From the NCBI RefSeq assembly GCF_003992015.1, contig NZ_RQVK01000004.1:1-64000 (forward strand): a stretch of DNA of 64,000 bases. Direction: 5' to 3'. The position numbers and the translations under genes were made by a program. This document shows positions 20,691-64,000 of the stretch, in pieces. Positions within the stretch are counted from its first letter, which is position 1, and each line of letters begins with the position of its first letter. The DNA comes from Veillonella sp. VA137. GTDB taxonomy: Bacteria; Bacillota; Negativicutes; Veillonellales; Veillonellaceae. The notes under the pieces are model-generated. The model saw only the letters and a list, made by a program, of their open reading frames with translations, was not told the DNA's origin and searched no databases.

Positions 20691-22418
20691 TTATCCTTTT
20701 CCGGCAAATTGAACAGAATATAAATGACTGTACAAGCCATTCAACGCTAATAATTCATCATGTGTGCCTTCTTCTACAACACAGCCTTGTTGTAGGACCA
20801 CTATATGATCGGCATGTTTAATAGTACTCAATCTATGAGCAATCACTAAAGCCGTTCTATTTTTCATTAATCGTTCTAATGCTTCTTGTACAATTTTTTC
20901 ACTTTCAGTATCTAAGGCTGAGGTAGCTTCATCAAGGATTAAAATACTAGGATTTTTCAAGATAGCTCGTGCAATAGCAATGCGTTGACGTTGACCGCCA
21001 GACAAGGAATTACCACGTTCTCCTACTACCGTATCAAATCCATTTGGCAATTTTTCGATAAATTCATAGGCATTCGCTGCTTTAGCTGCCGCAATGATTT
21101 CTTCGTCTGTTGCATCTAGACGACCATACAAGATATTTTCACGTACAGTCGCATTGAATAACATCGTATCTTGTGGTACTAAACCAATATTTTCTCGCAA
21201 AGACGTAAATGTTACATCACGCACATCTATACCATCAATGCGAATGCCGCCACCTGTTACATCATAAAAACGTGGTAATAAGTTCGCTATCGTTGACTTA
21301 CCCGCTCCAGAAGGACCAACAATCGCCACAGTTTGTCCTTGTTTTACCGTTAAATTAACGCCTTTTAATGCCAAATTATCTTCATCATAAGCAAATTGTA
21401 CATTGTCGAATTCTACAGTTCCTTGTACATCCGTTAATGCTTTTGCCATTGGGGATTCTTTCACATGCGGTTCTGTTTCTAAAATATCAATGACCCGATC
21501 TCCTGCTGCCATCGCTTTTTGCAAGTTACCATAGACTTGTGTTAAACGTTTTACAGGATTTGATAAATTGATGGCATAAATTAAGAATGCAATCAAGGAT
21601 CCTGCTGTAATATAACCTTGTACTACAGAATATCCACCGTACCACAAAATGATGACTACTGCAATGGCCGCTGCAAATTCCACCATAGGCCCCATGACAG
21701 CTGTTAATTTTGTAGCTTTCATAGCGGCATCAAAGTTATTTTGGTTCTCTTGTTCAAAGCGGTTAAACTCATACTTTTCACGTGCAAAAGAACGTATGAC
21801 ACGAACACCGGAGATAACTTCTTGTAAAAATGCTGTAATATCCGCTGTTCTACCTTGCACCTCATGACCTGCTGAACGCAATTTTTTACCAAAAATATTA
21901 GTCAAGCCTAATACAACAGGCACAATAATCAATGTCAAGAGGGATAATTTCCAATCCAAATAAAACATGAATACTAAGGAGCCGACCAAGGTAACGCCTT
22001 CTGTCATAAAGGAAATCAAATTATCTACAATCGCTTGTTGTAAAGCGCCTACATCGCTCGTCACGTTACTCATGATAACCCCTGTTTTACGGCGGTCAAA
22101 ATAAGCTTGGTCTAGCTTTTGTAAATGTTTAAATAAGGTTTCACGAATGTCGATAACTACTCGTTGCCCTACATAGGCCATTGTATAATTTTGCCCATAC
22201 GTAGCAAATCCTCTAAGCAAGAAAATGATTAAAATAGCGATAACAATTAATGTTAATAAGCCTAAATCTTTATCTTGCAATACGCCATCCACTACATTTC
22301 GAATCAACCAAGGTACCACTAAGTATCCCATGGCTGCTGCAATCATGCAAAATATACCTAATATGAGTCGCATCCTATATGGCAGTACAAATGCCAATAG
22401 TTGTTTATAACGATCCAT
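20691..22418 (-). CDS. msbA: lipid A export ABC transporter MsbA
   Basis: It flips lipid A-core across the inner membrane. The 575-aa half-transporter has six membrane segments in the first 310 residues and a C-terminal ATPase: Walker A VGPSGAGKSTI, signature LSGGQRQRIAIARA, Walker B ILILDEATSALD and H-loop IAHRLSTI. Many ABC exporters share this layout, so the MsbA call rests largely on its place between lpxB and waaA. Confidence 0.9.
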   Translation of the reverse strand: MDRYKQLLAFVLPYRMRLILGIFCMIAAAMGYLVVPWLIRNVVDGVLQDKDLGLLTLIVIAILIIFLLRGFATYGQNYTMAYVGQRVVIDIRETLFKHLQKLDQAYFDRRKTGVIMSNVTSDVGALQQAIVDNLISFMTEGVTLVGSLVFMFYLDWKLSLLTLIIVPVVLGLTNIFGKKLRSAGHEVQGRTADITAFLQEVISGVRVIRSFAREKYEFNRFEQENQNNFDAAMKATKLTAVMGPMVEFAAAIAVVIILWYGGYSVVQGYITAGSLIAFLIYAINLSNPVKRLTQVYGNLQKAMAAGDRVIDILETEPHVKESPMAKALTDVQGTVEFDNVQFAYDEDNLALKGVNLTVKQGQTVAIVGPSGAGKSTIANLLPRFYDVTGGGIRIDGIDVRDVTFTSLRENIGLVPQDTMLFNATVRENILYGRLDATDEEIIAAAKAANAYEFIEKLPNGFDTVVGERGNSLSGGQRQRIAIARAILKNPSILILDEATSALDTESEKIVQEALERLMKNRTALVIAHRLSTIKHADHIVVLQQGCVVEEGTHDELLALNGLYSHLYSVQFAGKG

Positions 22419-31856: not shown

Positions 31857-34001
31857 TTAGAATTGTCCACCAAAGCTAAAGTGGAATTTCTTTTGATTTT
31901 TACTAATACCATAGTCGATACGTACTGGACCAATTGGTGTTGTCACACGCACGCCGGCACCGACGGAAGCATTGAATGTTTTAGAATGAGAGAACCAAGG
32001 TACATTTGGAGCATCCCAAGCATCACCTAAGTCAGTGAATAAGGCGCCACTTACTTTATTCCAAATTGGGAAGCGATATTCCGCTGTGAAATTGTACATT
32101 TTCTTACCACGGTATTGATCGTCCTCATAAGCACGAAGAGAATCAGAACCACCGATTGTATATAATTGGCTATATGGTAAATCCCCAACAGCCCAACCGA
32201 TACGACCACGGAATGCCAATACTTGTTTATTGCCTACTTTTTTATACGTTCTAGCTTCACCAGTGAATTTATAGAAATTGAAGTCACCGCCTAAGCCATG
32301 ACCACCCCATTGCAATGTACTGGACAAACGTTTACCACGGCTTGGTTCATACACATTATCACGGGAGTCGAATACTTTTTGCCAGCTCACACTGTTTGTT
32401 GTACCGAAGTTATGTTTTAAGTATCCCGATGAAAGGAATGGATAACCATAGTTATTCCATCGATGTCCTGAGCCAGGACCTCCTTTTACATCCGTATCAT
32501 AACGGAAACCACTGGAATCCTTGTTATCCCAAATATAGGTATCTTTACGATGTTCTAATGTCAAATAATCACGAGTAAACTCAGCTGTTTGACGACCTAA
32601 GGTAATATTGAACCCATTGGACTTACGATCGTATGTAGCAACGCCTTGTCCTTTTTCATTGTAATCTGTGTATTCATTTAATTGGTTGAAGTAGGTCACA
32701 CCAAGGGATGTGCCTTTGCTATCAATCCATGGACGCAAGTAGGATACAGAGTAATTTTTATACCCTGCTGTACCGCCGAATTCCCAGTGAACTTTAATTT
32801 TGTCGCCAGTACCACGTAGGTTTTCTTCCCCTACTTCTACGATCCCCACAAATCCATCAGAACCAGAGTAACCAGCACCTAATGTAATCGTACCTGTTTT
32901 ATGTTCCAACACATCTACTTCAATATTTACCGTTTCTTCTGTGGATCCTTGTGTTAAACGTACGTTTACATCATCAAAGAAACCCAAGTTATATACTTTT
33001 TCTACAGAACGACGTACTAAGAATTTATTAAATGGTTGACCCACTTTTTGGTTGAATTCACGAGTAATCACTCGATCTTTGGTTTTCTTATTACCATGTG
33101 GTGTAATACGTTCTACAATACCTTCTACCACAAATACGTGTAATACACCATTATCGTCTACAGCCATGTCTTTTACATGCGCTAAGATGTAACCATCACG
33201 TTGGTACGCAGCATTGATACCTTGTACTTTTTCCCCTACGGAAATTGTATTCAATACGGTGTTTGGTTGTACACCTAAGTAGTTCACCAATACATCTGTT
33301 TTGTACACAGTGTTACCTTCTACAGACACACCTTTGATCACTGGGTTTAATGTTACATGGTACGCTACTTTCACCCCTTCTGGCACTTCTGTAAATACTG
33401 GTGTAATTTCTGAAAGAACGCCAGAACCGCCTAAGTTTGCTATTTCTTTTGAAATACCTTCTACAGTAACGGCATCGCCAATTTTACCTTGCAACAAGGA
33501 TAGGAATGCTGGCTGATTAGCTGCATCAAGACCTTCAATAGAGATATTTGTAATTGTTTTACCTACATATTTTTGTAATTCTGTTTCTGTTAACGATGTG
33601 AAATAACGAGCTTGTACTTGAGGAATTGCTGTTTCCACACCAGCTGCTTGTGCTTCTTCTAATTTATCACCACCAGCTTTTGTGATGGTTTTAACTTCTT
33701 TATCATTTGTAGCTAAAGAAGAGTTATCCACACGTTTACGTTGTTCTTCGATTGCATCACGTTGTGCTGCTTCCGATAAACCTTCACGAGCTGCCGCGAT
33801 GGCTGCTTCTGTTGCTGCATCACCAGCAGCTACCGTTTCTTGGCGTGTAGTATTTTGCTTTCCTAGGTCCGCCATGGACAATTTAGCAATTGTTTTGCCA
33901 CTTTCCGTTGTCGTAGCATTGTCAGCAAATACTGGAGTTGCACTGATTGCTGCTAGGACAGCAAAGGTTAAAAATTTCTTATAAGATAGGTTTCCCTTCA
34001 T
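31857..34001 (-). CDS. bamA: outer membrane protein assembly factor BamA
   Basis: This Omp85 protein folds beta-barrel proteins into the outer membrane. The 714-aa protein has a signal peptide (cut about VFA-DN, residue 26), an Ala/Glu/Lys-rich stretch (about 27-135), three POTRA-like domains (about 145-215, 216-290, 291-370) and a 16-strand-type barrel with the Omp85 segment YTIGGSDSLRAYEDDQYRG, ending in the signal FHFSFGGQF. E. coli BamA has five POTRA domains and no such N-terminal region. TAAGGAGG SD. It is the second gene of the main OM/LPS unit. Confidence 0.94.
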   Translation of the reverse strand: MKGNLSYKKFLTFAVLAAISATPVFADNATTTESGKTIAKLSMADLGKQNTTRQETVAAGDAATEAAIAAAREGLSEAAQRDAIEEQRKRVDNSSLATNDKEVKTITKAGGDKLEEAQAAGVETAIPQVQARYFTSLTETELQKYVGKTITNISIEGLDAANQPAFLSLLQGKIGDAVTVEGISKEIANLGGSGVLSEITPVFTEVPEGVKVAYHVTLNPVIKGVSVEGNTVYKTDVLVNYLGVQPNTVLNTISVGEKVQGINAAYQRDGYILAHVKDMAVDDNGVLHVFVVEGIVERITPHGNKKTKDRVITREFNQKVGQPFNKFLVRRSVEKVYNLGFFDDVNVRLTQGSTEETVNIEVDVLEHKTGTITLGAGYSGSDGFVGIVEVGEENLRGTGDKIKVHWEFGGTAGYKNYSVSYLRPWIDSKGTSLGVTYFNQLNEYTDYNEKGQGVATYDRKSNGFNITLGRQTAEFTRDYLTLEHRKDTYIWDNKDSSGFRYDTDVKGGPGSGHRWNNYGYPFLSSGYLKHNFGTTNSVSWQKVFDSRDNVYEPSRGKRLSSTLQWGGHGLGGDFNFYKFTGEARTYKKVGNKQVLAFRGRIGWAVGDLPYSQLYTIGGSDSLRAYEDDQYRGKKMYNFTAEYRFPIWNKVSGALFTDLGDAWDAPNVPWFSHSKTFNASVGAGVRVTTPIGPVRIDYGISKNQKKFHFSFGGQF

Positions 34002-37644: not shown

Positions 37645-40600
37645 TTACTCCATTTCATAATCTTGAATAGCATCTACTGTAATTACATCACCTGCAGTAG
37701 CGCGACTCGCTACGACATGTAACACTTCACGAGCTGTATCCAAGGATGTCAAGCATGGTACACCCATTTCTACAGCCAAACGACGCAATTGGAATCCTTC
37801 ACGCTCTGGTTTTTTACCATAGGTTAATGTATTCAACATCAAGTCCACCTTACCTTCACGAATGAAGTCAGCGCAATTTGGATTACCTTCAGAAATTTTA
37901 TTTACTACAGTGCAATCCACGCCATGTTCTGTGAAGTAACGGCCTGTACCACCAGTAGCCATAATATGGTACCCCAAATCGATAAAGCCTTTTGCTAAAC
38001 GAGATGCTTCTTCTTTATCACGGTCTGCTACAGTCATCAAGATATTACCTTTATCTGGAATGCGCATGTTTGCACCATGGATGGCTTTGAATAAAGCATC
38101 TGCATAGGTGCGACCAATACCCATTACTTCCCCAGTGGATTTCATTTCTGGTCCTAGGGCAATTTCTACTAAGCCCATTTTAGAGAAGGAGAATACTGGT
38201 GCTTTCACCGCCACATGTGGACGAGCTGGCACTAGGCCTGTTGGTAAGCCTAAGCTTTCCAAGGTTTCTCCTAAGGCAATCCGTGTCGCATATTCTACCA
38301 TGTTGATACCAGTTACTTTACTGATGAAAGGCACTGTACGGCTAGAACGTGGGTTTACTTCGATTACATGAAGTTCACCATTTACCACGATGTATTGGAT
38401 GTTGAGCACACCTTTTACATTAAGACCTTTAGCGATGCGACGTGTGTAATCTACGATTTGTTCTGTCAATTCCTCAGACAAATGTTGTGCTGGATATACG
38501 GCGATAGAGTCACCAGAGTGTACGCCGGCACGTTCTACTTGTTCCATGATACCAGGGATGCATACATCGATACCATCAGAGATCGCATCTACTTCTACTT
38601 CCATGCCTACCATGTAGCGGTCGATTAACACTGGGTGATCTTTGGATGCTACTACAGCTTCCTTCATGTAACGATCTAATTCTTGGTCATTATACACAAT
38701 TTCCATAGCACGACCACCTAGTACATAGGACGGACGGACAATCAATGGATATTGCAAGCGTTTTGCCGCTTCTAAGGCTTCTTCGTCACTAGTTACCAAG
38801 GCGCCTACTGGACGAGGAATTTCTAATTTTGCCAACAATTCATCGAAACGTTCACGGTCTTCTGCCATATCGATGCTGTCCACAGATGTACCTAGAATGT
38901 TTACACCTCGTGCAGCCAACGGGCCTGCTAAGTTAATGGCTGTTTGTCCACCGAACTGAGCGATAACTCCTACTGGGTTCTCCTTCCGGATAATTTCCAT
39001 CACATCATCTACTGTCAACGGTTCAAAGTACAAGCTATCAGATGTATCAAAATCTGTACTTACTGTCTCTGGGTTATTGTTAATAATGATGGATTTCATG
39101 CCCGCTTTACGCAATGCCCAAGAGGAATGAACAGAGCAATAATCGAATTCTACGCCTTGTCCGATACGAATAGGGCCAGAACCAAGAACGATAACGCTAT
39201 TTTCACCACGTGGTACTACTTCATCTTCCTTCGCATAAGCACTGTAGTAGTATGGTGTGTGTGCTTCAAATTCAGCGGCACAGGTATCTACATATTTATA
39301 GGTTGGATGAATGCCAAGCTCATTGCGTTTTGTCAATACGTCCTCATGAGAGCAGTTTGCATAGCGAGCAATCACTTTATCTGGGAAGGAATATTTTTTC
39401 GCTAATTTTAAATTACTTTCCGTAATACCATTCGCAGATAAATCTTTTTCTACCATCACAATATTTTTAATTTTGTTTATGAAGAAAGAGTTAATTTTTG
39501 TAATGTAGCAAATTTTTTCTACACTAATACCAACACGAAGTGCTTGTGCAATGACATACAAACGCTCATCATCGACTAATTGCAATCGTTCAATGAGTTG
39601 TTCAGGCGTTTCATGAGCAATTTTTTTCAATTCAATATGGTCTAAACCGATCTCTAGAGAACGGATAGCTTTTAACAGAGACCCTTCTAATGTACGGTCG
39701 ATAGCCATAACTTCGCCAGTAGCTTTCATTTGTGTTCCCAATGTACGATCCGCCAAATTGAATTTTTCAAATGGCCAACGTGGGAATTTTGTTACCACAT
39801 AGTCCAAGGATGGTTCAAAGCATGCTTTAGTTTCTCCTGTGACGGCATTTGTAATTTCATCTAAGGTCATGCCGATAGCCACTTTCGCCGCTACTTTAGC
39901 AATAGGATATCCCGTTGCTTTAGAAGCTAGTGCAGAAGAACGAGACACGCGAGGATTTACTTCAATAACATAGTATTGATTGCTGTATGGGTCCAAGGCA
40001 TATTGCACATTACAGCCACCTTCAATTTCAAGATAACGAATGATATCGACAGAGGCAGTACGCAACATTTGGTATTGTATATCATTCAAGGTTTGCGATG
40101 GTGCCACTACCACCGAATCGCCTGTATGTACCCCTACTGGGTCAATATTTTCCATATTACATACAATGATACAGTTATCTGCGCGGTCACGCATTACTTC
40201 GTATTCTACTTCTTTCCAACCAGCTACGGATCGTTCTACAAGAATTTGATGGATCGGACTAAGCTTGATGCCACGAAGGGCAATCATGTACATTTCCTCT
40301 TCGTTATGAGCAATACCGCCACCTGTACCACCTAATGTATAGGCAGGACGGATGATGATAGGGTATCCGATACGATTAGCAAATTCTACCGCTTCTGCCA
40401 CATCACTGAAAATATCAGATTCTGGCACAGGTTGGTTGATACGTTTCATCGCCTCTTTAAACAATTCACGGTCTTCCGCTTGTTTAATAGCCTCTAAAGT
40501 AGTGCCTAATAATTTTACATTATACTCCTTAAGGACTCCTGCCTCTGAGAGTTCCACCGCCATATTGAGACCAACTTGTCCGCCTAATGTAGCCAACACA

Positions 40601-40845
40601 CCATATGGGCGTTCTTTACGAATAATCTCAGTAACAAACTCCAAAGAAATCGGCTCAATATAAACACGGTCCGCAATATCACGGTCTGTCATAATGGTAG
40701 CCGGATTGGAGTTCACTAATACAACTTCATAACCTTCTTCACGAAGAGATTGACAAGCCTGTGTGCCTGCATAATCAAACTCAGCTGCCTGTCCGATAAT
40801 AATTGGACCAGAACCAATTACAAGAACTTTTTTCTTTTCCATCAT
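37645..40845 (-). CDS. carB: carbamoyl phosphate synthase large subunit
   Basis: It makes carbamoyl phosphate from glutamine-derived ammonia, bicarbonate and two ATP. The 1066-aa protein has two homologous ATP-grasp halves (each starting [10 protein letters not shown] / [11 protein letters not shown], at about residues 9 and 556) and a C-terminal methylglyoxal-synthase-like allosteric domain (about 935-1066; [11 protein letters not shown]). Two adjacent ATG codons are possible starts; the second (40842) is better spaced from the SD. It overlaps the carA stop (TAATG). Confidence 0.97.
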
Positions 40846-55906: not shown

Positions 55907-56701
55907 TTAGGAAAACAGATGATCTATGCCATCCATATCTAGAATCGTACCAATTGTAAATGGTCCAAAGATACCAAAGCGAGCACTTACTTCATCAAAT
56001 CGCATTTCATTGACGATTTTTTTAAACTGAATTGGATCATCACTCATCAATGTAATACCCCATTCCCAATCATCCATACCAAAAGCACCCGTCGTAAACT
56101 CTTTGATAGTGTCCTCATATTTTTTACCAATTTGACCATGAGAACGCATCATACTACCACGACTTTGACGATCTAGCATATACCAATTATCTGTCAAATT
56201 ACGTTGCTTAGCCATAGGGTAGAAACACATGCAAGCCAATCTAGGAATTTTAGGGTATAACCGGGCTTGCACTTTTGGATGGTCCTTCGGAGATTTTACA
56301 TAATTGCTTACTTCAATAACAGATACGAAAGAAGATTCTGGCTGTAATACACTAAAGATTGGTAATTTTTTTAGTGTCAATTCTACTTCGTTCAACTCTT
56401 GCAAGCTTGGTTGTAAGAACCAAAACATAATATCTCCCTTATGACCATTGATTTGGTACATAGCATAGCTACTTGTATGGGCCTCATGAGCTGCTTCTAA
56501 ATTTCCAATAAACGCCTTGAAAGATTGCAATGCTTCACTTTGTTGCTCACCGGACCAGCTTCTCCATTTTTCAAAATTAATGGAATAATTAGCGTGTAAG
56601 CTAAACCAACCTTCGTATGTTTCAGGTACTTTTTCTAGTCCTGTAGTATGTCCATGCATAGGTATTGCGCCTGCATGAACAGATTCTGTATGTGTATCCA
56701 T
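55907..56701 (-). CDS. possible separate ChdC from an internal start in the fusion gene
   Basis: ATG 56701 (codon 463) has AAGGAGG at 56710-56716, spaced 8 nt, better than the SD of many true starts here. It would yield 264 aa that begin in the linker and contain the whole coproheme decarboxylase domain. ChdC works as a pentamer in other bacteria, so free subunits could fill the oligomer. Translation from this site is inferred only. Confidence 0.5.
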   Translation of the reverse strand: MDTHTESVHAGAIPMHGHTTGLEKVPETYEGWFSLHANYSINFEKWRSWSGEQQSEALQSFKAFIGNLEAAHEAHTSSYAMYQINGHKGDIMFWFLQPSLQELNEVELTLKKLPIFSVLQPESSFVSVIEVSNYVKSPKDHPKVQARLYPKIPRLACMCFYPMAKQRNLTDNWYMLDRQSRGSMMRSHGQIGKKYEDTIKEFTTGAFGMDDWEWGITLMSDDPIQFKKIVNEMRFDEVSARFGIFGPFTIGTILDMDGIDHLFS

Positions 56702-58087
56702 AGGAACTACCTCCTTAGTTTCTTCTTTCCATACTGTTACCAATTCATAGGCTTGTTTGATGCCATCTGGCATGCCGACCCCTTTAAATGGAGTTCCAAT
56801 TAATGCCAATCCTGGATAGTGTTCTTGGACATGGCCCATGAGGGTTGCCACTCGGTCTTTATGTCCCACTTCGTATTGGGGCATACTTTTTTGTAACCGT
56901 ACCACTTCCATCCATTCTGGATTTCCTGTAAACTTCAATATATTTCGTATTTCTGAAAGCGCCAATTCACACAGTTCTTCTTCACTGTGCGTATCTACCG
57001 TAGAGTCTGTAGGCTTCCCTAAAAAGACGCGTAGTACCACCTTGTCTTGTGGTGTCATTTGTGGCCACTTACTAGAAATGTAAGTACATGCCGTCAATGG
57101 CGTCTCTGTGCTGCGAGTAATCACAAAGCCTGTGCCTTGCAATGGTTTTGTAAACGCTGACTTCGGCAAACTCATAATGACAATGGCACAAGAAGATTGT
57201 TCCATATGCCGCAAGTCTTCAAATTTTTCATCTCCCAAAAAAAATTTTTCATAGGCTTTAGGTGGCGTAGTAATCACAAGACGGTCATAGGAGTCTGTAC
57301 CGTTTTGTGTTTGCACTGTATAGAGCTTATCTGTGTATGATGCCTCTAGCACCTCAGTCGATGTGTGCAAAGAAACGTTCTTTGGCATTTGTTCCACAAG
57401 AGCATCTACTAATGATTCTAAACCTCCCGTTAATTGGGCAAATTGTCCTTCGGTAGCCGCCCCAGATTGTTTGCGCATACCTTGCATAGCCATCATACCT
57501 TTGACCAAGTTTCCATGCTTTTGTTCTAATTGACGAAATTCTGGAAAGGTTCCCAGTAAACTTAAGCGTTTTAAGTCTCCACCGTAGATACCAGATAAGA
57601 GAGGTTCAATTAATAAATTGACTAGTTCATCCCCTAAATGATACCGGAAAAAGGCATCGATACTCATATCTTCATTTCCTGGATATGGTTTCTTAAAAAT
57701 ATCTAATCCAGCTCGTAATTTACCAAACCAACTTAATAAGCTAGACATAGCAAAAGGAAGAAATTCTGTAGGGATGCCAATGATGGATCCTCCAGGGATA
57801 GGCTTCATTTGACCTTGATGATAAATATAGGATTCTCCCGTAGCATTACGTACCAAGGTATCACCTAATCCCAATTCCTGTACCAAATCTGTCATAGATG
57901 TTTTTCTGGCTAAATACGAATCAGGACCCACTTCTACCACATAGCCATCGCGACGTTTTGTTTGTACCTTTCCACCCCAACGATTCGAAGATTCTAGGAC
58001 ATGAATGTCCCAGTTAGGAAATGCTTTGCCCATATAATACGCTGCAGATAAGCCTGTTAGGCCACCACCAATAATTGCTACTTTCAT
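55907..58087 (-). CDS. coproporphyrinogen III oxidase / coproheme decarboxylase fusion
   Basis: This 726-aa protein joins two steps of the coproporphyrin-dependent heme pathway. Residues 1-455 are a CgoX (HemY-type) FAD oxidase: dinucleotide motif IIGGGLTGLSAA (5-16), LESSNRWGGK, and PFKGVGMPDGIKQA (433-446). Residues 488-726 are a ChdC (HemQ) domain: catalytic Tyr623 in YPMAK, proximal His650 in MRSHGQIGKKY, GAFGMDDWEWGITL and MRFDEVSARFG. The linker (456-487) is His-rich. An SD AAGGAGG 8 nt before in-frame Met463 could let ChdC also be made alone. It follows hemH by 1 nt. Confidence 0.95.
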   Translation of the reverse strand: MKVAIIGGGLTGLSAAYYMGKAFPNWDIHVLESSNRWGGKVQTKRRDGYVVEVGPDSYLARKTSMTDLVQELGLGDTLVRNATGESYIYHQGQMKPIPGGSIIGIPTEFLPFAMSSLLSWFGKLRAGLDIFKKPYPGNEDMSIDAFFRYHLGDELVNLLIEPLLSGIYGGDLKRLSLLGTFPEFRQLEQKHGNLVKGMMAMQGMRKQSGAATEGQFAQLTGGLESLVDALVEQMPKNVSLHTSTEVLEASYTDKLYTVQTQNGTDSYDRLVITTPPKAYEKFFLGDEKFEDLRHMEQSSCAIVIMSLPKSAFTKPLQGTGFVITRSTETPLTACTYISSKWPQMTPQDKVVLRVFLGKPTDSTVDTHSEEELCELALSEIRNILKFTGNPEWMEVVRLQKSMPQYEVGHKDRVATLMGHVQEHYPGLALIGTPFKGVGMPDGIKQAYELVTVWKEETKEVVPMDTHTESVHAGAIPMHGHTTGLEKVPETYEGWFSLHANYSINFEKWRSWSGEQQSEALQSFKAFIGNLEAAHEAHTSSYAMYQINGHKGDIMFWFLQPSLQELNEVELTLKKLPIFSVLQPESSFVSVIEVSNYVKSPKDHPKVQARLYPKIPRLACMCFYPMAKQRNLTDNWYMLDRQSRGSMMRSHGQIGKKYEDTIKEFTTGAFGMDDWEWGITLMSDDPIQFKKIVNEMRFDEVSARFGIFGPFTIGTILDMDGIDHLFS

Positions 58088-58088
58088 A

Positions 58089-59009
58089 TTACCCCTCCTT
58101 CAAGAGAGCTGTTAATACACCATGCGCCATGGCTTTCACAAAGAGAGTGTCACGATCTGGCATAGGCACTCGCACATAGGTCATCCCCAACTGTTCACAT
58201 TGGTCCCGCCGTTCTATATCTAAATCATAGGACACTTCCATATGGGTACAAGTAAATCCGATAGGCATATATACCACATGGGTATGCCCTTCTACGCCCG
58301 CTTGTTCTGTCACCGTTTCTACTGTAGGTGTTAGCCATTCCCCACGAGTACCTGCACTTTGCCAAGCTAAGGTAGGATGAGGCAACTGCAATTGATCTGC
58401 TATGGATTGCATCACTTGTTGTAAGCTATGAACATACCCATCATAGGTAATCCCTTTCATGAGCGGTACACTGTGAGCCGTACACACATACTGCGGGTTA
58501 GCTCCAGCTGGCAGTGTACACAATGTATCTTTCACTCGGTCTACCCACGACGAAACTAATGTGGGTGCGTCCGCCCAATGTGGCACTACCTTCCATCGGT
58601 CATTCATAAACGGTTTCAGTGGCTCTAAATAGGATGCATTTAATATGTCTGTTCCATAAGGATTCATCATAAGTACCACTACTGTATCATAGTGGCCCAA
58701 TTCCTTCGCTACATCCCCGATGAGTGGTTCTATATATTTATGTGCTTGTACCACCGTTACCTTTGCAAAGGGTAGTTCGTTTTGTAACTCTTCTTGTAAC
58801 CGCTCTACTTGCCATACGGTAGACTCCATTAACTGAGATTGTCCACCAATGCGTTCATACTTATGTCGCAATCCTTGTAATTCTTTGTCACTTGGCCCGT
58901 GACCTCTCCGTATGCGGGTATAATATGTTTTCACATCTTCTAAGGAGCGGGGAGAGCCATAATCTAATACCAATACACAAACTTGTTGTATCTCTTTATC
59001 CTCTGTCAT
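58089..59009 (-). CDS. hemH: coproporphyrin ferrochelatase
   Basis: It inserts iron into coproporphyrin III, or protoporphyrin IX in other bacteria. The 306-aa protein has the early motif VLDYGSPRSLEDV, the catalytic His in CTAHSVPL and the acidic metal-path motif HMEVSYDLDIE. Given the CgoX-ChdC partner, the coproporphyrin substrate is expected (CpfC). ATG 59009 has GGAG 7 nt upstream. It overlaps the end of hemE. Confidence 0.94.
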   Translation of the reverse strand: MTEDKEIQQVCVLVLDYGSPRSLEDVKTYYTRIRRGHGPSDKELQGLRHKYERIGGQSQLMESTVWQVERLQEELQNELPFAKVTVVQAHKYIEPLIGDVAKELGHYDTVVVLMMNPYGTDILNASYLEPLKPFMNDRWKVVPHWADAPTLVSSWVDRVKDTLCTLPAGANPQYVCTAHSVPLMKGITYDGYVHSLQQVMQSIADQLQLPHPTLAWQSAGTRGEWLTPTVETVTEQAGVEGHTHVVYMPIGFTCTHMEVSYDLDIERRDQCEQLGMTYVRVPMPDRDTLFVKAMAHGVLTALLKEG

Positions 59010-60024
59010 GTACATACTCCACTATGTTTCGCAATACTTTAGGATTCGCATCTGGCACAACACCGTGGCCTAAATTAAAAATATGCTTTCCATGAGCAGC
59101 ACCTTCTTCCAAAATACGATCAATTTCACCTTGAATTGTCTTCCAATCTGCAAATAAATAGGCAGGGTCCAAATTCCCTTGTAATGTTTGCTTGATGCCC
59201 ATCGCACTTGCTTCTGCAATGGAGCATCTCCAATCGCAACCGATTACATCTAATGGTAATTCTTTCCACACTGGAAATAAATGCTTAGTACCTACGCCGA
59301 ACATAGTGATAGGAATATGAGGATATCGTTCTTTAATAGTCCCAATAATATGTTTCATATACGGGAATACGCCACTTTCATATTGTTCCATGGAAAGGGC
59401 TCCAATCCATGAATCAAAAATTTGAATTGCATTCACCCCCGCCTGAATTTGACCTTCCATATAAGTAATGGACATAGTAGTCAATCGCTCCATCAAAGCA
59501 TGCCAAATCTCAGGGGTTGCCACTAAACATTGACGAGTTTTCTGGTAATTTTTAGAAGGTCCACCTTCAATCATATAGCTAGCCAATGTAAAAGGAGCCC
59601 CTGCAAAGCCAATTAAGGGAACTGTGAGCATTTCTTTCGTCAATATTTGGATCGTTTTCACCATAAAGTCCAACGATTCTTCTACCACAATATCCCGCAG
59701 CTTTTCCACATCATCTTTGGATCGAATGGGATTAGAAATCACTGGCCCTATACCAGATTTTATGTTCACATCTACGCCCATAGGTACCAAAGGCGTCATA
59801 ATATCTTTGTACAAAATAGCCGCATCTACATCATACTCATGAACGGGAAGAGCTGTCACTTTTGCACATAATTCCGGTTGATGAGTAATCTCAAATAGGC
59901 TATATCGTTCTTTTATCTTGCGATACGCCTCTTGACTACGTCCCGCTTGACGCATAAACCAAACTGGTCTGCGAGACACCGGCTCACCTGCAATCATTTG
60001 CAAATAATCTTGTCGTTTTTCCAT
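58996..60024 (-). CDS. hemE: uroporphyrinogen decarboxylase
   Basis: It converts uroporphyrinogen III to coproporphyrinogen III. The 342-aa protein has the substrate-binding N-terminus RRPVWFMRQAGRSQ, AAILYKDIMTPLVPMG, GFAGAPFTLASYMIEGGPS and FNLGHGVVPDANP at the C-terminus. AAGGTG SD. It is the first gene of hemE-hemH-cgoX/chdC; the earlier pathway genes are not in the window. Confidence 0.96.
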   Translation of the reverse strand: MEKRQDYLQMIAGEPVSRRPVWFMRQAGRSQEAYRKIKERYSLFEITHQPELCAKVTALPVHEYDVDAAILYKDIMTPLVPMGVDVNIKSGIGPVISNPIRSKDDVEKLRDIVVEESLDFMVKTIQILTKEMLTVPLIGFAGAPFTLASYMIEGGPSKNYQKTRQCLVATPEIWHALMERLTTMSITYMEGQIQAGVNAIQIFDSWIGALSMEQYESGVFPYMKHIIGTIKERYPHIPITMFGVGTKHLFPVWKELPLDVIGCDWRCSIAEASAMGIKQTLQGNLDPAYLFADWKTIQGEIDRILEEGAAHGKHIFNLGHGVVPDANPKVLRNIVEYVHDRG

Positions 60025-60351: not shown

Positions 60352-62325
60352 TTATATGTCTTGTACCCTTACATACTCTGCTCCTAGCATATGCGCAATC
60401 TCTTTCCCTCGATTCATGCGAACAAAACTGGTGTCTGTATCGATGACCGTCGTTTGTATTCCCTGATTCGCAATCCATCTACCGATGTCGTCTAGTCCCT
60501 GCAGTGCTTGTGAGGTGACCTTCCCATCTGTAATAATTACGACCTTTGCCTGTACATGCCCCATTTGAGACATGTCGTTGCCTATCTGTTTGACCGCTTC
60601 CTCAATACCTTTTACAAAGGGCGTTCTCCCTCCAATCCGAGCCGTTTCCAATGCTTTAGGGATGGTCTCGATTCGCCTTGTCAATGGCACCACGCATTGA
60701 GCACCTTGCTTTTGAAAGGTGATGAGCGATACATACTGTCGTTTTACATACATCATCTGTACCAATTGTGAAAGTAACTTCTCCGTCCTCTTTAATCGTT
60801 GTCTCTGCCCCATAGATCCACTTGTATCAACTACTAAATAGATGGCTTCTTTTGGCATTTCCTGATACATAGCATATCTGACATCTTCTATAATTAGCCG
60901 AATCGGTACTTGCCGACTACGTACAATCCCTTGTACTATCGTTGGTATCCATGCAATGGTTCTCCCCCTAGTTCCTTGACGATGTACCTTAGGGCCTCGA
61001 CCGTCATCACTGATGTCTATGTGTTTCTTTGCCGGCTCAGATTGCAACATCCCATATAAATGTAACACCTGCGTTTCCACTGCTTCTGAAAGTGCAAAGG
61101 ACTCCTCTACCTTACCTCTATGGGACTCACGTTGGCCCTCTCCGCTCGTATCCTTTTCTTTCCCTGTTCCATCATATCTAGTAGCTAATTCCTCTTCTGT
61201 CTGATCAGATTCTAGAGTAGTTTGCTCTATTGGTTGTTCCTCGTGAGAACTATCCCTATCTGTTGTCATCCCTTGAGTCACCTTTCCCGTTGACTCATCA
61301 CGGTCGTTCTCCCTATCTATCCCTTGTGAGCCATTATCTTCTTGTTCTCGGTTTGAACTGGCCTCTTTCGATTTCTCTTGTTCGGTTCTTGTCTCATCGG
61401 ATGGCATTCGGTCAGATGAATCCTGTGACTCTCCCTCTTGCTGTGTTTGAGAGTTCACTGGCTTCTTCATCTTTTGTGGTAATGTCCACGGGAGTACTGT
61501 TTCTACATCAGTAGGCTCAACAAACAGATGGCCTTTTTCTCTAGCTAAACCGATGGCCGCTTTTAGCAAAATGTATTCCATACCCATAAAGGAAATGTTA
61601 AATCTCTCTACTAGACTGGAAATATATGTATATATACTATCATGCACCGTCGGGATTCTAGGTGCATCCATTAATTTCCCCTCAGGATGAGTCGGATCTT
61701 CTTTATGGGTTTTAAATGCAGCCATTACTTTTCTCTCAGGAGGAATCTGTTCTTCTCTGTGGAATCCATATACATCTATTGCGGTTCCCGTACGAAGAGT
61801 TTCCACACTGTAGTGACTTTCACGAGCCACACCTATCTCATAGATTTCCTCATCTTCTCTATCTGCTAGGACTCGCACTCTAGTGTTCGCATCCGGTGAT
61901 TCTATGGGTATCCACAAATCCATATCATAGACCCATTCTGAAAGCCCTTCTGCCCCCGTATAGGTCCCAATGATTTGTAGCGGTTTTCTCGCTTCGTACC
62001 GACGATTTTGCTCGTAAAGAATCCGTAACCACATGGACCGGTCAAAGTGATCCAATCCTTCGCAAATAAGCAAGTCATACACGTCCCAAGGATGTGCTTG
62101 TTTTACAATTTGAGCTGTTTCTAAGGACCTTTGTATATCCACCGCTTCCTGTATAGCACTCACATCTGTGTGGGATGTAATCGTCGTATAGGTTCGGCCC
62201 CTATCATGCAATGTTTGTAACAGAGCATACGTTTTTCCCGTTCCCACTTCACCTGAAATCAGTAATGTCCGCAACAAAGGTTCTTGCAAAAAGAGGTGAA
62301 TGCCTGTATTCAGTTGTACACTCAT
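60352..62325 (-). CDS. ChlD/BchD-like chelatase subunit with vWA domain
   Basis: The 657-aa protein has an N-terminal AAA-like part with an intact Walker A (ISGEVGTGKT), a very polar Glu/Asp/Ser/Gln-rich linker (about 290-410), and a C-terminal vWA domain with the MIDAS motif VVDTSGSMGQ near residue 500 and ITDGKVTSQ. ChlD and CobT/CobS-like partners assemble with the I subunit to drive metal insertion. ATG 62325 has AAAGGAGG 8 nt upstream. It follows the chlI-like gene. Metal and substrate are uncertain; cobalt and a corrin are most likely. Confidence 0.85.
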   Translation of the reverse strand: MSVQLNTGIHLFLQEPLLRTLLISGEVGTGKTYALLQTLHDRGRTYTTITSHTDVSAIQEAVDIQRSLETAQIVKQAHPWDVYDLLICEGLDHFDRSMWLRILYEQNRRYEARKPLQIIGTYTGAEGLSEWVYDMDLWIPIESPDANTRVRVLADREDEEIYEIGVARESHYSVETLRTGTAIDVYGFHREEQIPPERKVMAAFKTHKEDPTHPEGKLMDAPRIPTVHDSIYTYISSLVERFNISFMGMEYILLKAAIGLAREKGHLFVEPTDVETVLPWTLPQKMKKPVNSQTQQEGESQDSSDRMPSDETRTEQEKSKEASSNREQEDNGSQGIDRENDRDESTGKVTQGMTTDRDSSHEEQPIEQTTLESDQTEEELATRYDGTGKEKDTSGEGQRESHRGKVEESFALSEAVETQVLHLYGMLQSEPAKKHIDISDDGRGPKVHRQGTRGRTIAWIPTIVQGIVRSRQVPIRLIIEDVRYAMYQEMPKEAIYLVVDTSGSMGQRQRLKRTEKLLSQLVQMMYVKRQYVSLITFQKQGAQCVVPLTRRIETIPKALETARIGGRTPFVKGIEEAVKQIGNDMSQMGHVQAKVVIITDGKVTSQALQGLDDIGRWIANQGIQTTVIDTDTSFVRMNRGKEIAHMLGAEYVRVQDI

Positions 62326-62363
62326 ACCATTCACCTCCTTTAACAAAATCTTTGATGATTCTA

Positions 62364-63302
62364 CTACTTCTGTATCCCTTCATAGGTAGCCCATAGATTG
62401 TCCAGCATAGTTTCATCAAATTCACGTTGCTCAAAGGGTTTCCGCTTCATCCGATGAGATACCACAAGCGGTGTCAACTGTTTCAGATGATCCATGGTCA
62501 CATGGGGCTCCCCTTGTAAGGCCGCCAAAGCACGGCTACTATTGAGCAAGGTAATATCTGAACGATGTCCCTCTACGCCTAGGGTAATAGATATATTGGC
62601 AATCAATTCTAATAGATTTGCATCTACCCCAATGGTAGGCAATACTTTGCGCGCTGTTTCAATAGTTTTACGCAACGCTTCATCGTCCTTCCTGTAGGGC
62701 TCAATAAATGCTTGTGGAGTATCTTCAAAGGCCAATCGGCGACGCAATACTTCCATTCTCAAGGCTACATCAGTTTCTGCTTTCACAGTCACCGATAGAC
62801 CAAAGCGATCCAACAATTGTGGACGAATACCCCCCTCTTCGGGGTTCATGGTGCCCACCAAAATAAATCGTGATGGATGACTATGGCTAATGCCCTCCCG
62901 TTCGATGCGATTCACCCCCATGGCCGCCACATCTAACAATGTATCCACTAAGTAGTCCTCTAGTAAATTGACTTCATCCACATAGAGAATATTTTCGTGA
63001 GCCTCAAATAAAATGCCTGGAGAAAACTCTTGCTTCCCCTCTTGCAGCATCCGCTCAATATCCAAGGTTCCCACCAATCTGTCTTCCGTGCAATGCAATG
63101 GAAGGTCCACCACTTTCATCGGTGTGCCATCACGATGCATAGGCAGCACCTTGGCTAAGCCTCGTACCGCCGTCGATTTTGCCGTTCCCTTATCACCCTG
63201 TATCAACACACCACCTACCCGTGGGTCTACCGCATTGAGGAGTAAGGCCAATTTCATTTGATCTTGTCCTACTAAGGCTGTAAAAGGATATATAGTACTC
63301 AT
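62364..63302 (-). CDS. ChlI/BchI-like AAA+ chelatase subunit
   Basis: The 312-aa motor subunit has [22 protein letters not shown], Walker [10 protein letters not shown], the ChlI insert [18 protein letters not shown], Walker [17 protein letters not shown] and the sensor [20 protein letters not shown]. It would hydrolyse ATP with the ChlD-like protein and feed the CobN-like chelatase. ATG 63302 follows AAGGAG; the longer frame has no SD. It begins 10 nt after the cobN-like stop. Confidence 0.92.
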
Positions 63303-63312
63303 GTTAGTCTCC

Positions 63313-64000
63313 TTACGTTTCATCATAATACCCCTCTAGGTCATCTTCCAAAGACATTGCCACATCGCGCAATCCTTCTCTGCGCTCCACACTGGCATTC
63401 CAAAGTCCTCGTTGTTCTGCTTCTAATAAAGTATGGCAAATAGCCCCTAATGCCCAAGGGTTGGCTTGACGCATCCAGTCCTGTACCTCCTGATTCATGA
63501 CATATTCGTCTGTATAGGCATCATACATCCAATCTTGAATCATATCACTAGTGGCATCCCATTCATAGGTATGTTGAACATAGGACGCCATATCCGCTGC
63601 TCCCTTGTAACCGTGTTTCATCATGCCTTCTATAAAAATAGGGTTTATTGGTTCACTACGGAACTGACGCTGAATTTCATCTTCTAAGGACCGCACCAAA
63701 ATATCTTTGCGGTACGTGGTATCTCCTATAAATGATTTCGGCTTAGTACCTTTCACCGCCTCCACAGCAGCGATCATACCCCCATGGTAGGCATTGAAAT
63801 CATCTGTACTCAACAAACTAACCTCTCGGTTATCTTCATTTTTCACAGTCACTTCGATGGAACCTAATCGCTTGCAAAACTGTTGATGGCTTGGAATAAT
63901 TTCCCCTTGCTCATCATATCCATAGCCACCCCAGGTGACATAGGCATTGGCTAAATCTTCACGAGTAGACCAGTTGCTTTGTTCTAGAATTTGATTCACT
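63313..64000 (-). CDS. cobN: CobN/ChlH-family chelatase large subunit (5' part beyond the window)
   Basis: The visible 229 or so C-terminal residues carry the family end region: [58 protein letters not shown] and [19 protein letters not shown]. The full protein should be about 1200 residues. Family members are cobaltochelatase CobN and magnesium chelatase ChlH. With chlI- and chlD-like genes next to it, and a cobO gene elsewhere in the window, cobalt insertion into a corrin is the likely reaction. The frame is open to the right edge. Confidence 0.88.

Follow-up and report, generated by a model that had tools for sequence, protein, structure and literature searches.

Results

A single frame for two enzymes of the coproporphyrin pathway

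On the minus strand of the window, as we call the whole 64,000-nucleotide stretch of Veillonella sp. VA137 DNA that was analysed, one open reading frame encodes both CgoX, a HemY-type coproporphyrinogen III oxidase, and ChdC (HemQ), the coproheme decarboxylase (Table 1). Searched with Pfam, the 726-aa protein matches Amino_oxidase at residues 10-445 (E 6.5e-51) and Chlor_dismutase (PF06778) at residues 518-715 (6.6e-57). Among the NCBIfam models, those for protoporphyrinogen oxidase cover residues 2-450, TIGR00562 scoring 335 bits against a cut-off of 98, and the H2O2-dependent heme synthase NF008913 covers residues 486-725 with 291 bits against a cut-off of 253. The CgoX part, which belongs by these matches to the FAD-dependent porphyrinogen oxidases and has the dinucleotide-binding motif GGGLTGLSAAYY at its N-terminus (starting at residue 7), has B. 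subtilis HemY (3i6d, E 4.9e-109) as its best solved relative; for the ChdC part this is G. stearothermophilus ChdC (1t0t, E 7.6e-69). A preliminary description of the locus had placed a complete HemY-type oxidase and a complete HemQ-type decarboxylase in one frame, and the profile matches over residues 2-450 and 486-725 bear this out. It had also held that the catalytic residues Tyr623 and His650 are retained, as is indeed seen in the alignment to 1t0t, and had expected products of about 82 and 30 kDa, in agreement with the calculated 81.7 kDa for the fusion and 30.4 kDa from Met463.

The roles of Tyr623 as the catalytic tyrosine and of His650 as the proximal histidine are established for ChdC. 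A chlorite-dismutase-fold match spans the full domain, and both the Tyr and the His are present. As a putative ChdC, the C-terminal part would be a pentameric enzyme that carries out H2O2-dependent decarboxylation of coproheme. Judging from the neighbouring hemE and cpfC and from the fused ChdC, we infer that the CgoX part acts on coproporphyrinogen rather than protoporphyrinogen. An AlphaFold2 model of the fusion, built from five near-identical rows, reached a pLDDT of 38 and was discarded.

The cluster is ordered hemE-cpfC-cgoX::chdC, with ChlD-like, ChlI-like and cobN genes further upstream. These chelatase genes lie at 60352-63999 on the same strand; for the ChlD-like subunit the best models cover chiefly the C-terminal part, and the ORF listed for it starts with TTG. 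We compared the locus within a genus group of six genomes, namely Veillonella sp. VA137 (the window), CHU740, VA139, 3310, 3891 and VA142. Catalase and cytochrome bd oxidase genes are present in all six, and their products are likely users of the heme that is made.

Table 1. Features of the cgoX::chdC locus (positions in the window)
Feature	Position	Strand	Remarks
cgoX::chdC fused gene	55907..58087	minus	726 aa, 81.7 kDa, one ORF
CgoX (HemY-type coproporphyrinogen III oxidase) domain	56738..58087	minus	residues 1-450; TIGR00562 2-450, aligned to 3i6d
Codon GAA, Glu456	56720..56722	minus	paired in the codon alignment with the cgoX stop TAA of VA142
Internal Shine-Dalgarno (SD) AAGGAGG	56710..56716	minus	encodes Lys458-Glu459 and the first base of Val460; identical in the five fused species
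In-frame ATG, Met463	56699..56701	minus	where chdC starts in split relatives; 8-nt spacer after AAGGAGG
ChdC reading frame from internal ATG	55907..56701	minus	264 aa, 30.4 kDa
His/Gly-rich variable linker	56633..56698	minus	residues 464-485; counterpart of the extension at the N-terminus of relatives' stand-alone ChdC
ChdC (HemQ, coproheme decarboxylase) domain	55913..56632	minus	residues 486-725; NF008913 above cut-off, aligned to 1t0t
Catalytic Tyr623	56219..56221	minus	CFYPM motif of the 1t0t alignment
Proximal heme ligand His650	56138..56140	minus	RAHG motif in the alignment to 1t0t
cpfC (coproporphyrin ferrochelatase)	58089..59015	minus	directly upstream of the fusion; Pfam Ferrochelatase 1.1e-53
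hemE/uroD	58996..60024	minus	20-nt overlap with cpfC; TIGR01464 1.1e-119

The junction carries a candidate start signal for chdC

On the coding strand the junction reads TGG AAA GAA GAA ACT AAG GAG GTA GTT CCT ATG GAT ACA CAT. The AAGGAGG lying 8 nt before the in-frame ATG at 56701, which had been described with no strand given, was read directly on the minus strand. The codons of the junction that bear it are AAGGAGGTA, for which a synonymous recoding of the SD is AAAGAAGTT. The duplex of the internal SD with the anti-SD is calculated at -12.2 kcal/mol, as against -11.5 kcal/mol at the gene's own start, and the internal SD is the best among the 64 in-frame start-like codons of the gene. RNA structure around it is weaker than at about 80% of gene positions.

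We counted the background of internal AAGGAGG on 458 kb of the genome. The motif occurs inside genes 14 times in 120,557 codons, and the junction site alone is followed by an in-frame ATG 4-11 nt on. This rarity proves little, because about one such coincidence is expected by chance (14 sites, some 2.7 in-frame codons per site, with Met making up a few per cent). For a given junction ATG, an AAGGAGG 4-11 nt ahead of it would arise by chance with a probability of about 3e-4. The evidential weight of the signal comes from its placement at the domain junction and from the homologous SD of chdC in relatives rather than from its rarity in the genome.

Fused and split alleles among relatives

The fusion is found in five of the six genus-group genomes, the window included, and all five share ACTAAGGAGGTAGTTCCTATG exactly, with identical SD, spacer and ATG. 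Absence of the SD from close relatives sharing the fusion, which the preliminary description had named as evidence against its reading, did not occur: all four other fused species retain it letter for letter. An assembly or sequencing error as the source of the fusion was rejected, since five genomes carry it. The cgoX start codon is GTG rather than ATG in Veillonella sp. 3310 and 3891.

The sixth genome, VA142, has a split allele (TGG AAA GAA TAA ATT ATG GAG GTG AAA GAT ATG CAT). Its junction has the length and frame of that in the window, with no indel up to the ATG, and a single TAA stands in the column of GAA456. Before the ATG paired with Met463 stands an SD (GGAGGTG, duplex -15.2 kcal/mol). 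In all of the family's 22 other ChdC-bearing genomes, chdC is a gene of its own downstream of cgoX; the distance between the two ranges from -1 to 553 nt, and chdC has an AGGAG-type SD. In G023, a member of the family outside the genus group, the SD lies within the cgoX tail and is followed by an in-frame stop (AAG GAG GTA TAA CCA ATG); loss of the stop in such an arrangement would yield a junction like that of the window.

Several stand-alone ChdC proteins begin with a His/Gly-rich extension resembling the segment after Met463, and Met463 therefore corresponds to the native ChdC start. Genus groups g1 and g4 as well as G007 have this extension (HGHHG, HGHGGHPGHPG) in very variable length; it is short or absent in G008-G012 and G014-G020. 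It possibly binds metal or heme.

ChdC itself was found in 28 of 380 Negativicutes genomes, all belonging to one family and to 4 genera, a confinement which suggests that the oxygen/H2O2-dependent heme route was either gained in a single lineage or lost widely in anaerobes. A survey of Negativicutes for fused and split forms, as proposed in the preliminary description, returned the fused form in five species and the split form in VA142 and the 22 family genomes, with no further CgoX-ChdC fusion among the ChdC genomes of the 380. Nor was a CgoX-ChdC fusion found in an even 398-genome sample of the phylum, where open frames of at most 482 aa are too short for both domains.

Origin of the fusion and probable use of the internal start

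The fusion most likely arose through loss of the cgoX stop codon, because VA142 has TAA in the GAA456 column and all 22 other family genomes are split. Such an origin had been put forward earlier as one of two readings, and it now gains strong support from these two observations together with the correspondence of ATG463 to the native chdC start. In a tree of the locus (cgoX and chdC codons, junction omitted), VA142 branches next to the five fused species as their sister (93/93); codon positions 1+2 (87/90) and the protein (80/90) give the same placement, as does concatenation of the locus with a 1066-aa marker (82/92).

Taken singly, this marker and two more, of 714 and 575 aa, yielded mutually conflicting orders and did not settle the placement of VA142. 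The marker trees, drawn from window positions 20691-22418, 31857-34001 and 37645-40845, conflict within the six-species group, and CHU740 is divergent in two; such conflict is a sign of recombination among the species. Because other genes of the window disagree about the place of VA142, polarity at the species level is uncertain. The ancestor of the genus group might thus already have possessed the fused gene, which VA142 would have split again by a change of GAA to TAA; the function that we propose for the present-day gene is compatible with either history. This course of events draws on the evident recombination and on the trees of other genes, which do not put VA142 outside the other five. 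It demands two changes instead of one, however, the locus and concatenated trees make VA142 the sister lineage, and the VA142 junction has a strong SD of its own at -15.2 kcal/mol. We regard a secondary split as improbable. Since the genes are split in all the family's ChdC-bearing genomes outside the group, one loss of the stop is the simplest history.

Continued use of the old chdC start is suggested by the pattern of conservation in the fused gene. Out of 171 invariant runs among the five fused species, none exceeds that of codons 456-463 (E456-M463), which is 8 codons long and matched by just one other; 2 of 704 eight-codon windows are invariant. Four-fold sites of the gene differ by 15-39% among the same species, and the codons that follow Met463 are hypervariable, with indels. 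The conditional probability of synonymous invariance at codons 456-463 is 0.013. An SD and a start codon at the proper spacing of 8 nt have been kept identical in five species. The invariance is modest evidence, coming as it does from five related and recombining species, and Lys-Glu-Val-Val-Pro could be retained for reasons other than the SD. Against an internal start speaks the location of the SD within translated sequence, where it competes with elongating ribosomes.

It may be that only the full-length fusion is made and that the SD is a relic, which persists owing to the recency of the fusion or to a role of the Lys-Glu-Val-Val-Pro linker as protein. The shared ancestry of the species and the conservation of the block in amino acids as well as in codons fit this explanation, but the third positions of the block are all unchanged despite the 15-39% four-fold divergence, the SD is still the strongest among the in-frame candidates, and the adjoining linker shows little constraint at the protein level; on balance we find it unlikely. 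A still more doubtful proposition, to which we give very little credence, is that the whole fusion is translated and then cut in an exposed His-rich linker, releasing two enzymes without internal initiation. Variability in length and composition is indeed typical of an exposed, unfolded segment, but a conserved cleavage motif cannot be seen in this linker, and cleavage would leave the conservation of the SD codons unexplained. Weighing the sequence comparisons as a whole, we consider it probable that cgoX::chdC is a stop-loss fusion with a retained chdC start signal, and that the gene yields CgoX-ChdC plus, probably, free ChdC. Initiation at Met463 likely continues, so that both the fusion and free ChdC would be produced.

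Discussion

We propose that the ancestral locus had cgoX and chdC as neighbouring cistrons in the same frame, with the ribosome-binding site of chdC in the few codons between them, as in VA142. Loss of the cgoX stop by a single base change (TAA to GAA) would have joined the genes, a step for which the comparison of alleles argues strongly. Translation from the cgoX start would, as the open frame implies, produce the 81.7-kDa CgoX-ChdC protein. The old signal, AAGGAGG followed after 8 nt by ATG, has been retained, and ribosomes probably still initiate there to make free ChdC of 30.4 kDa. Free ChdC may form pentamers by itself or together with fusion subunits, so avoiding an obligatory five CgoX units per pentamer. 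ChdC is a pentamer (PMC10427985); with such a structure, free subunits would permit mixed assemblies.

A plausible benefit of the joined form would be that CgoX releases H2O2 beside its consumer. H2O2 is used by ChdC, and the CpfC step falls between those of CgoX and ChdC. Direct channelling of porphyrin from CgoX to ChdC is less likely, since CpfC acts between the two. Three H2O2 are formed per turnover (per porphyrinogen) by CgoX-type oxidases (PMC10740692), and H2O2 from CgoX is put forward in a review as a possible oxidant for ChdC (PMC10991733). We tentatively suggest, as a possibility about which we have more doubt than confidence, that one gene under selection provides two ChdC forms, CgoX-tethered subunits using local CgoX H2O2 and free ChdC, which would jointly set the composition of mixed pentamers.

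The enzymes themselves are ordinary and known; what is new is the CgoX-ChdC fusion architecture and the retained start. Neither a CgoX-ChdC fusion nor a HemQ fusion in Veillonella was found in the literature searched, whose coverage left out most subscription papers. B. subtilis HemY (3i6d), G. stearothermophilus ChdC (1t0t) and L. monocytogenes lmo2113 have homologous full-length domains with the catalytic residues present but, unlike the Veillonella fusion, come from separate genes. The split cgoX and chdC of other Veillonellaceae, VA142 included, have the same neighbours in the same order and an SD before the same start, several with a His-rich ChdC N-terminus, and differ from the fusion in the stop codon between the genes. 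A parallel in design is the ChdC-CpfC fusion of Cutibacterium acnes, which likewise links two coproporphyrin-pathway enzymes through a presumably flexible linker (PMC10427985). That protein joins consecutive steps, whereas the Veillonella fusion joins CgoX and ChdC around an intermediate CpfC that is separately encoded, and the passage on the C. acnes protein mentions no internal start (PMC10427985). Rpn nucleases with a separately translated C-terminal RpnS give a full-length and a C-terminal product from one frame, an output that for cgoX::chdC is only predicted; Rpn and RpnS are toxin and antitoxin and have been demonstrated experimentally, whereas cgoX::chdC comprises two complete metabolic enzymes known from sequence (PMC10327210).

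In conclusion, the locus presents a fusion caught soon after the event, with split and fused alleles in congeneric species one base apart at the stop codon. A split/fused species pair in which the downstream start signal is kept allows direct tests of how an operon turned into a bifunctional enzyme and of what became of the old start. Furthermore, the fusion joins the H2O2-producing and the H2O2-consuming enzymes of the coproporphyrin pathway and skips the ferrochelatase step, and this joining of CgoX with ChdC bears on the oxidant supply of ChdC in bacteria living at low oxygen.
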